From Mucilaginibacter rigui (lineage in GTDB: Bacteria; Bacteroidota; Bacteroidia; Sphingobacteriales; Sphingobacteriaceae): a stretch of 64,000 nucleotides of DNA. Under the pieces are notes generated by a model. It worked only from the letters and a program-made list of their open reading frames with translations. It was not told the DNA's origin and did not search any database. Location of the stretch: assembly GCF_014773275.1 (NCBI RefSeq), contig NZ_JACWMW010000001.1:248001-312000 (forward strand), given 5' to 3'. How positions within the stretch are numbered: position 1 is the stretch's first letter; every line of letters begins with the position of its first letter. Made by a program: the position numbers and the translations under genes. Positions 20,093-23,397 of this stretch are shown one piece after another.

Positions 20093-20263
20093 GTAATCAT
20101 GTAAATAATTAAAAGCCTTTGCAAAGAAAATTTGCAGGGGGTATTTTGCTTTTTGAGCTAAAGCACCTCTTGTTTTACGCAATATTTTAACCTTTATATA
20201 ATAGGGTTTATCTCCCTGCATAAAAAGGGTTATTACAACCTATGAGAATTATTTAGGTGCCCA

Positions 20264-20271
20264 TACCTTAG
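20264..20271 (+). promoter_or_regulatory. possible -7 promoter element for the lanthipeptide precursor
   Basis: TACCTTAG departs from TAnnTTTG at one position and lies 35 bp before the precursor ATG. No good -33 element is seen. A weak call. Confidence 0.25.
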
Positions 20272-20306
20272 CATTGTTAATAAATACAAACCTAAACCTT
20301 ATTACA

Positions 20307-20513
20307 ATGTCACAAAAAAGTTTTTCTGAAGCTGTAAAGAGCGATGCTGCTTTACAAAGCGATCTTAACAAAGCGGTATCTGCAGCAATTGCAGAAGTAG
20401 CTAAAAAACATGGCGTATCTTTTTCTGATGCAGACCTTGGTAAAGGCCACAAAGCGGTTACAGGTAACGTAGGTTGCGTATCAACCGCCTGGACAGCCGT
20501 ATGTACTGTTTGA
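20307..20513 (+). CDS. lanA: putative class II lanthipeptide precursor with Nif11-like leader
   Basis: This 68-residue peptide precedes a LanM-type synthetase gene. Residues 1-46 look like a Nif11-type leader: helical, with SFSEAVKSDAALQSDLNKAV and then KKHGVSFSDADLG, the GxxFxxxDL pattern of that family. The tail from ~52, TGNVGCVSTAWTAVCTV, has Cys57 and Cys66 with Ser59, Thr60, Thr63, Thr67 and Thr52, so up to two (methyl)lanthionine rings are possible. There is no canonical double-Gly cleavage site; the nearest small residues are G53 and G56. The ATG at 20307 is preferred to an in-frame TTG at 20274 because it gives a normal leader. No second precursor is evident. Confidence 0.82.
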   Translation: MSQKSFSEAVKSDAALQSDLNKAVSAAIAEVAKKHGVSFSDADLGKGHKAVTGNVGCVSTAWTAVCTV

Positions 20514-20524
20514 TCGCCCGTTGC

Positions 20525-20561
20525 AATAACATGCAAAGCAGAGCCTGCTTTGCATGTTATT
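20525..20561 (+). terminator. hairpin between precursor and synthetase (attenuator-like)
   Basis: A perfect 17-bp stem (20525-20541 with 20545-20561) closes a 3-base loop 11 bp after the precursor stop. Only a weak TTGTTTAAAT tract follows, so it may act as a partial terminator or an mRNA-end stabiliser. Either would give more precursor than enzyme message. That effect is inferred. Confidence 0.7.
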
Positions 20562-20595
20562 TGTTTAAATACTATGAGATTTAACCCCCGGTAAA

Positions 20596-23397
20596 TTGAC
20601 AGATATAAATAATAGCAAAGCATCTGCCCGGCAAACATTGCCCTTTGGGCAACACATCAAAGCCATGCTGCAGGCCGGGTTGCAAAACCTGCCTGATGAT
20701 GAGATCGAAGCGCTTTTAAAAAACCTGTCATCGGTGAGCAAATTTTGCTTTGACGAACATTTTTGCGACTTCGCAACAAAAACACACCCCTTCTTTAATA
20801 TACTGCAATTAGTTGATCCGGCCTTTAAAAGTACCGATGATATAATGAATGATTATGATGATCATTTTTTTAATCATGGCGGGTTGGCCGGATTTTTAAA
20901 AAAATATCCATTGGTTAACACGTTGCAACAAGATATGCTGCAACAGCTAACCACATTTAAAACCGAATTACATAACCATATCCAAACGGATATGGATAAT
21001 CTTTCAAAAATATTCAATAATAGTAGGCCAATCGGCATCCCGGTTAAAATAGATACAAACCAGGGCGATGTACACAATGGCGGCAAAAGCGCAGCTATTG
21101 TAGCATTTACAAGTGGTTTAAAAATAGTTTATAAACCGCGTAGCGGGGGCATGGATGTTGCCTTTAATACATTTATTAGTGAGGTTGCCGCAGAAACCGG
21201 TATTGGCCTGAAAACTCCACGGGTGCTTGATTGCGGCGATTATTTTTGGATGGAGTTTATTGAGCATTTGCCGGTAACAAATACTAATGAACTAACCGGA
21301 TACTATACCGAATGTGGCGTGCTGCTGGCTATTGTGTTTTTGCTGGGCGGCACCGATTTTCATTTTGAGAATATTATAGCTCATGGTAAACACCCCGTGC
21401 TGATTGATCTGGAATGCCTGTTTGGTGCAACCGGCGAAATGCAGGAGGATATATTTAGCGTAAATAATACAGGCCTTGTACCCGCCAATATATATTTAGG
21501 CGGGCAGGATGCACCCATTGATAACAGTGGGTTTGGTGCCTGGGGTAAACAAATATCAGGCATCAACCGCTGGGTATGGGCAAATGCAGGTACCGATGCG
21601 CTTCGGCTTGAAAAACAAAAAGGGATATTTACAGCAGATAAAAATCAGCCTGTATATGATAGTAACGCGGTATCGCCCCAAAACTACCTTGCCGAAATTA
21701 CAGGCGGTTTTAAACGGGCATGCAATTGGTTCATTACCAATAAAGATGTGTTAGATAAGCCGGGGTTTGCCTTCGGTAATTTTAAAAACAAGCCTGTAAG
21801 GGTGATCATGCGCTACACCATGAACTACCTTTTTATTATAGAAAACTCATTAAACGCCGATGCTTTATTATCTGAAGATGCGCGTAAAAAAGAAATATAC
21901 CGGTCATTAAACGAATTCCCTACAGCAACCCTGCTGTTGCCTCAAACAAAAGCATTAGTTATTGATGCCGAGTTTGAAGCTATAAAGCGCATGAATGTGC
22001 CGCTTTTTACCGGGAATACATCAAAGCTCCACATCCGGGAATCGGGGGATTGCCCGGAGTGGGCTTTTTTTGAAATTACACCATACCAGTTCACCCTTAA
22101 CCGCATTAAAAATTTCGATGCCGGTAAAATGGAGCAGCAGGTAAGTCTTATTACATCGGCTTTTGCAGCCCGCTATGGTAAGGTTCAGATCAACAGAGCC
22201 ATGCAACCCGATAAAAACTTAATAAAGTACGGCAAGGCGTCAATACTTAACGAAACCCGGCTCATAGCATCCGGCATTGCAGCATCAGCCATAAAAAATA
22301 ATAATACTTTTAGCTGGAACGGCTATACTGCCGATGCAGGCAATAAACTGGTGTTGGGGCAACTGAGCCCCATGCTGTATGATGGCTCATTGGGGATAGC
22401 TTGTTTTTTAAGTAGTGTGGATAGCGGTGCCAATAAGCAGTTGATAGATACTATTATAGCTGCCGAAGTAAAACGCGCCTGTAAAACTAATATGGGTATC
22501 TCTTTCGCCTCAGGAGTGGCAGGTTTGCTGTATACGTTGGTTAAAACCCATTGTGCTGATAATGATAACCTGCAAACAGCTATTAACCTGGCCCAGCTTG
22601 TAGGGCCGGCTGATATTAAAAAGGATACAAAATATGATATTATGGCGGGCTCGGCCGGCTTACTGTTAAGTCTAGCCCCCCTTTATAAAGCTTCGCACTC
22701 GGCAGATGTTTTAGAACTGATGGTTACTATAGCCCATCATTTATTGCAAGGCCGCGTTATTGACTCGGCCTCGCGGTCGTTAACCTGGCGCAGCGAACAG
22801 TTCGACAGGCCGCTCACCGGGTTCTCACATGGCGCATCGGGTATTGCCTGTGCATTGCTTACCTTATTTGACATTACCGGCATAGAAAAGTATAAACAGG
22901 CGTTTTATCAAGCGCTGCAATTTGAAAATTATTACCGCAATGCCGAACGTACTAATTGGTGCGACCTGCGCAAAACCGGTTACGATTGTAAAACTGCCTG
23001 GTGCCACGGTGCGCCGGGTATAGGCCTTGCACGCCTGCACGCCTACCATATTTTAAAGGATGAAGCGCTATTGCAAGATGTGGAGACTGCCCTTATTGCC
23101 ACAAAAAAGCACTTGTTAAGTGATACCGATTTTTATTGCTGTGGCAACACAGGCCGGATAGATTTTTTGATAGAAGCAGCGATGGTACTGGGTAGGCCCG
23201 CCCTATTACAGGATGCCCGTAAAGCGCTGGTGGCGCTGCTTAATCGTAAGAATAACCGCGGGTGGTACCAAACGTATGATGTGGAGAACGTTGGGATGGA
23301 AAACCCATCATTGTTTAGGGGCACAGCAGGCATCGGATATACTTTGCTTAGGAGTATAAATCCGGATGAAGTGCCTTGTATTGGCTTATTAGCGTAA
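20596..23397 (+). CDS. lanM: class II lanthionine synthetase LanM (ProcM-like CCG type)
   Basis: LanM enzymes phosphorylate and dehydrate Ser/Thr in a precursor, then form thioether rings with Cys. This 933-residue protein has the full two-domain build. The dehydratase half carries K180-P-R-S and GGTDFHFENIIAHGKHPVLI, with D254, H256, E258 and N259 as expected catalytic residues. The LanC-like cyclase half starts near 575 (MLYDGSLGIACFL) and shows GFSHGASGIA, WCHGAPGIG (C803) and CCGNTGR (C848, C849), giving a three-Cys zinc site as in ProcM instead of Cys-Cys-His. The start is TTG at 20596; the next in-frame ATG is at residue 24. It lies 82 bp after the precursor. Confidence 0.93.
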   Translation: MTDINNSKASARQTLPFGQHIKAMLQAGLQNLPDDEIEALLKNLSSVSKFCFDEHFCDFATKTHPFFNILQLVDPAFKSTDDIMNDYDDHFFNHGGLAGFLKKYPLVNTLQQDMLQQLTTFKTELHNHIQTDMDNLSKIFNNSRPIGIPVKIDTNQGDVHNGGKSAAIVAFTSGLKIVYKPRSGGMDVAFNTFISEVAAETGIGLKTPRVLDCGDYFWMEFIEHLPVTNTNELTGYYTECGVLLAIVFLLGGTDFHFENIIAHGKHPVLIDLECLFGATGEMQEDIFSVNNTGLVPANIYLGGQDAPIDNSGFGAWGKQISGINRWVWANAGTDALRLEKQKGIFTADKNQPVYDSNAVSPQNYLAEITGGFKRACNWFITNKDVLDKPGFAFGNFKNKPVRVIMRYTMNYLFIIENSLNADALLSEDARKKEIYRSLNEFPTATLLLPQTKALVIDAEFEAIKRMNVPLFTGNTSKLHIRESGDCPEWAFFEITPYQFTLNRIKNFDAGKMEQQVSLITSAFAARYGKVQINRAMQPDKNLIKYGKASILNETRLIASGIAASAIKNNNTFSWNGYTADAGNKLVLGQLSPMLYDGSLGIACFLSSVDSGANKQLIDTIIAAEVKRACKTNMGISFASGVAGLLYTLVKTHCADNDNLQTAINLAQLVGPADIKKDTKYDIMAGSAGLLLSLAPLYKASHSADVLELMVTIAHHLLQGRVIDSASRSLTWRSEQFDRPLTGFSHGASGIACALLTLFDITGIEKYKQAFYQALQFENYYRNAERTNWCDLRKTGYDCKTAWCHGAPGIGLARLHAYHILKDEALLQDVETALIATKKHLLSDTDFYCCGNTGRIDFLIEAAMVLGRPALLQDARKALVALLNRKNNRGWYQTYDVENVGMENPSLFRGTAGIGYTLLRSINPDEVPCIGLLA

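Follow-up and report, generated by a model that had tools for sequence, protein, structure and literature searches.

The analysed stretch of DNA, from here on the window (64,000 nucleotides of a Mucilaginibacter rigui genome), carries on its forward strand two adjacent genes, lanA and lanM, which very probably constitute a minimal class II lanthipeptide locus. The features of this locus are:

20225..20304, + strand: promoter-like block that immediately precedes lanA; conserved in the four lanAM loci
20307..20513, + strand: lanA, encoding the 68-aa precursor MSQKSFSEAVKSDAALQSDLNKAVSAAIAEVAKKHGVSFSDADLGKGHKAVTGNVGCVSTAWTAVCTV, with a leader of the Nif11 type
20475..20510, + strand: invariant core CVSTAWTAVCTV, residues 57-68 of LanA, identical in 4/4 orthologs
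20526..20560, + strand: 16-bp hairpin between lanA and lanM, detected by fold z and covariation
20596..23397, + strand: lanM, encoding a 933-aa class II lanthipeptide synthetase with a three-Cys zinc site (C803/C848/C849)

Precursor, synthetase and intergenic elements

The lanA reading frame runs from the ATG at 20307 to a stop codon at 20511-20513 and encodes 68 residues. The peptide scored 28.4 bits against Pfam Nif11 (E 2.1e-6), above the curated cut-off of 23.8, and 23.0 bits against NCBIfam TIGR03798, below the cut-off of 32.3, with a TIGR03798 score of 26.1 bits for the ortholog in genome G363. The frame and the Pfam score bear out the 68-residue peptide with a Nif11-like leader that had been proposed in an earlier note on this DNA. 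The leader is around 47-56 residues long and has no Gly-Gly site, and no conserved GG/GA motif was detected across the four orthologs. In a profile search of the window genome (4.7 Mb, 99.98% complete) LanA was the only Nif11 leader above the cut-off, and each ortholog genome gave one precursor match, in such a way that the single precursor claimed before was also recovered, as was the Bacteroidota host, here Mucilaginibacter.

The lanM gene starts 82 bp after lanA, probably at TTG 20596: the sequence around this codon, GGTAAATTGACAGA, is shared without change by the four genomes, and conservation does not extend to the next ATG in the window. Its product scored 664.8 bits against TIGR03897 (cut-off 304), with DUF4135 (303 bits) and LANC_like (211 bits) both fully covered in one chain, in agreement with the full-length LanM described earlier. 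The protein is homologous to LicM2 and CylM, and its gene is the only LanM gene of the genome. The phosphorylation residues of CylM (Lys274, Asp347, His349, Asn352 and Asp364; PMC4550811) map to K180, D254, H256, N259 and D271 of LanM, and the elimination residues (Asp252, His254, Arg506 and Thr512; PMC4550811) to D158, H160, R402 and T408, all of them present and invariant in the four orthologs. The same holds for the zinc ligands C803 and C848, for C849, which occupies the position of the usual His ligand, and for the cyclase residue H745; the WCHG and CCG motifs previously assigned to C803 and C848-C849 lie at those residues and are invariant in all the orthologs. Kinase, elimination and zinc residues are, then, all retained on alignment. 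An AlphaFold2 model of LanM from a two-row alignment had a mean pLDDT of 35.3 and was set aside.

The RNA fold z of the hairpin located between both genes ranged from -3.9 to -5.9 in the four genomes, in all of which the 16 pairs are formed, 6 of them with a compensatory change. No Rfam family matched positions 20526-20560. The hairpin is probably an attenuator or a transcript-stabilising element: it may terminate transcription in part, so that the precursor is held above the enzyme, or stabilise the lanA transcript. Upstream of lanA, the promoter-like block is also recognisable in a relative without lanAM (G174, 74% over 80 bp), and therefore the pair sits behind a region able to exist alone, as would follow from either the insertion of the pair there or its loss elsewhere. 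In several other relatives the CTAAACCTTAT element of this block is followed by a short hairpin unit. In these Mucilaginibacter without lanAM the unit closes with a hairpin, whose loop is CGGGGGA, and a T run, and lies upstream of a response-regulator gene (L053 1249-1400, L054 1-140, L056 around 1104, L058 1235-1400, L059/L060 around 1388). It is possibly a small RNA, and gave no Rfam match above the gathering score.

Conservation, selection and phylogeny

Among 149 Mucilaginibacter genomes, lanA was found in four, that of the window and G183, G363 and G815, whose LanA proteins are 96, 82 and 81% identical to that of the window; the identities of the LanM orthologs are 82, 69 and around 70%. 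A scan of genome contigs, for which the query was one protein instead of an alignment, gave the nearest ortholog, that of Mucilaginibacter sp. L294, as sole match. The other LanMs found in a sample of 399 genomes of the family are 25-34% identical, and 395 genomes of the phylum yielded no close relative of LanM. Viral contigs yielded no relatives in scans with the LanM alignment and with a Nostoc LanM, and plasmids yielded no LanA homolog, the annotated matches being acetyl-CoA acyltransferases. Two weak precursor matches (E 0.03-0.05) were judged to be due to chance, one in a stretch of G348 that on inspection looks like a short, unrelated peptide of secreted type and the other inside a 535-aa frame of G174.

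All four loci are at the same genomic place, flanked on the left by genes for a phosphodiesterase, a UPF0104-like protein and an epimerase, and on the right by those for a response regulator, a kinase, a UspA-like protein and a bestrophin-like protein (names given by inspection). The dN/dS of both lanA and lanM is around 0.09-0.14, indicative of purifying selection. The occurrence of the pair at the same locus in three further genomes, with a dN/dS around 0.1, confirms that it is more than a chance association. The downstream response regulator and histidine kinase were considered as members of the cluster and rejected, as no LanM was found beside the regulator in 13 genomes that have it; because relatives carry the regulator pair without lanAM, we place it outside the cluster.

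In a phylogeny of 26 LanMs, from which ProcM itself was left out, a supported group (98/97) unites the CCG enzymes with two cyanobacterial relatives whose zinc site is degenerate, these two being labelled CHG by default in the tree and neither CCG nor CHG in the aligned columns. Once four long branches were removed, the support of the CCG/CHG split was 100/100. The four Mucilaginibacter LanMs constitute a deep branch of their own, with a stem of 2.28 changes per column and no supported sister, and do not group closely with the LanMs that loci L020 and L021 of the same genus encode. The enzyme falls within LanM, on the CCG side of the tree. Its description as ProcM-like in the earlier note is supported by the zinc ligands and by this position, but does not extend to the lineage, which is deep and separate, or to the substrate, which is one and conserved.

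Core peptide, predicted rings and maturation

None of the last 12 positions of LanA varies among the four orthologs, the codons of CVSTAWTAVCTV showing only synonymous changes, whereas 9 of the 12 positions of the preceding linker are variable (Fisher p = 0.0003). We took these last residues as the core, and they would form the product, or most of it; the conserved core is shorter than the 17-residue Cys/Ser/Thr tail initially delimited. The candidate modification sites are S59, T60, T63 and T67, together with the Cys residues C57 and C66. In the G183 ortholog the linker reads APAGNLGC, with no Ser or Thr between the leader proper and C57. Without a conserved Ser or Thr upstream, any conserved ring of C57 must therefore close onto a later residue, that is, in the reverse direction. 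The two rings proposed as a maximum in the earlier note are possible, but only if one of them is formed in this direction.

According to our proposal, LanM would bind LanA through its helical Nif11-type leader, phosphorylate the Ser and Thr residues of the core (S59, T60, T63 and T67), carry out the subsequent eliminations and close thioether rings to C57 and C66 at the three-Cys zinc site. C66 would react with a dehydrated residue that precedes it, T63 in the simplest case, although T60 or S59 could also serve, and C57, if cyclised, would have its partner downstream, in the simplest case T60. The simplest pattern for such a dehydrated peptide, C57-T60 plus T63-C66, would consist of two small four-residue rings, opposed in direction and flanking Ala-Trp. 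Cyclisation in both directions is carried out by NpuM (PMC13060382) and SyncM (PMC9872173), and ring A of ProcA3.3, made by ProcM, is Cys14-Thr18 (PMC11667668).

Neither a transporter nor a protease nor an immunity gene was found at any of the four lanAM loci. The window genome encodes a C39-ABC exporter and an HlyD-like partner away from lanAM. The same exporter is also present in relatives without lanAM (G174, G036 and G062), and no C39-ABC exporter was found in the carrier G363 (99% complete), whose single C39 domain belongs to a protein of 471 aa and whose ABC matches to the exporter of the window genome (G000) start no earlier than residue 149. Since it occurs in relatives without lanAM and is missing from a carrier, this exporter is not a conserved partner of the pair. 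Leader removal and export would depend on unlinked proteins or on no dedicated proteins, and proteases not linked to the cluster have been described for other lanthipeptides (PMC8960859). Elsewhere in the window genome (L026 4840-11072, G000:C9), a C39-VKOR-thioredoxin protein lies among several short peptides whose leader resembles MSKFNKLSRAEMKNVLGG; they belong to an unrelated Gly-Gly peptide system.

The last step could also take another course, compatible with the main reading, in which the product is not secreted but works within the cell, its leader either retained or trimmed off by general proteases. The lack of exporter and protease genes at 4/4 loci, the leader without a Gly-Gly site and the carrier without a C39-ABC exporter all favour this course. 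However, lanthipeptide proteases can be unlinked (PMC8960859), ordinary ABC or efflux pumps could do the export, and an unlinked C39-ABC exporter is present in the window genome, so that we regard it as unlikely. Somewhat less likely still would be a lanthipeptide with neither a dedicated exporter nor a leader protease that acts inside the producer and whose core is fixed by an intracellular target.

Three other explanations concern the pair itself. A promiscuous, diversity-oriented enzyme like ProcM or SyncM, for which LanA would be one of many scattered substrates, would agree with the combination of a CCG site and a Nif11 leader, traits tied to promiscuous LanMs (PMC10027976). Nevertheless, a single Nif11 leader above the cut-off and a single LanM in an almost complete genome (99.98%), one precursor match per ortholog genome and a core that is invariant instead of hypervariable make this strongly disfavoured and very improbable, and the enzyme apparently has one fixed substrate, unlike those of the prochlorosins. 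It could also be that LanA is dehydrated but its Cys residues remain free or paired as a disulfide, giving a dehydrated peptide and no lanthipeptide, given that C57 has no upstream Ser or Thr in one ortholog and that C57 and C66, both conserved, could pair with each other; the intact zinc ligands C803/C848/C849 and H745, unlike the degenerate sites of the cyanobacterial loci L081 and L082, argue that such an outcome is most unlikely. Finally, the patchy distribution (4/149 genomes) and the absence of accessory genes could point to a decaying remnant without product, an extremely improbable situation in view of the catalytic residues, all intact in the four genomes, the dN/dS around 0.1, the invariance of the core and the covarying hairpin between the genes.

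Comparison with known systems and other LanM loci

LanMs with a CCG site are valued, because of their tolerance, for building libraries of cyclic peptides, and have been encountered mostly in cyanobacteria. The lanAM locus represents a compact two-gene Bacteroidota system with one very short and strictly conserved core, which tests whether the three-Cys site tracks substrate promiscuity or rather ring direction, the latter because a ring at its conserved N-terminal Cys should have to run in reverse. The locus also provides a simple two-gene case for how a lanthipeptide without linked protease or exporter is finished. A literature search, with most subscription papers outside its scope, found neither this core nor Nif11 lanthipeptides of Mucilaginibacter described; one paper on a species of the genus does mention lanthipeptides. 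According to a survey from 2020, Bacteroidetes have many lanthipeptide clusters, mainly of class I, and only the pinensins had then been isolated from the phylum (PMC7268733).

An association of Nif11 leaders has been reported with CCG LanMs alone (PMC10027976). A close parallel is NpuA/NpuM of Nostoc punctiforme, which makes the nostolysamides and is a characterised pair of a Nif11-type leader and a three-Cys zinc LanM with a single substrate peptide (PMC13060382); because of this precedent, the surprise value given to the locus in the earlier note was overstated. NpuA differs in its 78-residue leader ending in Gly-Gly, against around 47-56 residues and no Gly-Gly in LanA, and in its core of 25 residues with four Cys, against 12 conserved residues with two; moreover, its locus adds the C39-ABC exporter NpuT and the acyltransferase NpuN, while that of lanAM adds nothing else. 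ProcM with the prochlorosins and SyncM with the synechococsins, from picocyanobacteria, share with lanAM the Nif11-type leader, the CCG site and the expected possibility of both ring directions. They act on 29 and 79 precursors, respectively, with highly varied cores (PMC10027976, PMC10783134), whereas lanAM has one precursor and an invariant core (0/12 variable positions), without the hypervariable cores on a constant leader of the prochlorosins or the large number of natural substrates that characterises ProcM and SyncM, though not NpuM.

The top-ranked plasmid match, pNsp_b of Nostoc sp. ATCC 53789 (L030), also has a Nif11 precursor directly before a CCG LanM; unlike lanAM, this Nif11-LanM-PCAT cluster, with an enzyme around 30% identical, is followed by C39-ABC and HlyD export genes. 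Within Mucilaginibacter, the loci L020 (G165) and L021 (G243) similarly combine a CCG LanM with a weakly Nif11-like precursor, but their enzymes have 1100 aa and 30-34% identity to LanM, the precursor has around 105 aa with a longer and more Cys-rich tail than that of LanA, and there are two extra genes without Pfam match.

Other LanM loci were met in these searches. Those of Nostoc sp. UHCC 0926 (L081 1483-4734) and Pseudanabaena galeata (L082 1366-4581), the latter adjoining Nif11 precursors, encode LanMs that retain the dehydratase residues and have lost the zinc ligands (WANG, CWG/MWG), because of which their cyclase should be dead. The Sphingobacteriaceae LanM loci L020 5903-8591, L021 5734-8476, L022 8530-14523 and L023 8013-14007 carry extra proteins of 350-450 aa with no Pfam or NCBIfam match; no such match supported an identity as HopA1-like proteins, which had been suspected. 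A JmjC/cupin protein is encoded in L022 and in its near copy L023. In Bacteroidota, LanM-like proteins of around 515 aa without the LanC cyclase (L073 7511-12041 in G093, L074 7096-14667 in G418 and L038 3962-5497 in a Spirosoma plasmid) adjoin runs of NHLP-type precursors, whose ending in L073 and L074 is VAGG or IAGG; the tails there are Cys-poor, and a partner protein of 392-399 aa lies alongside.
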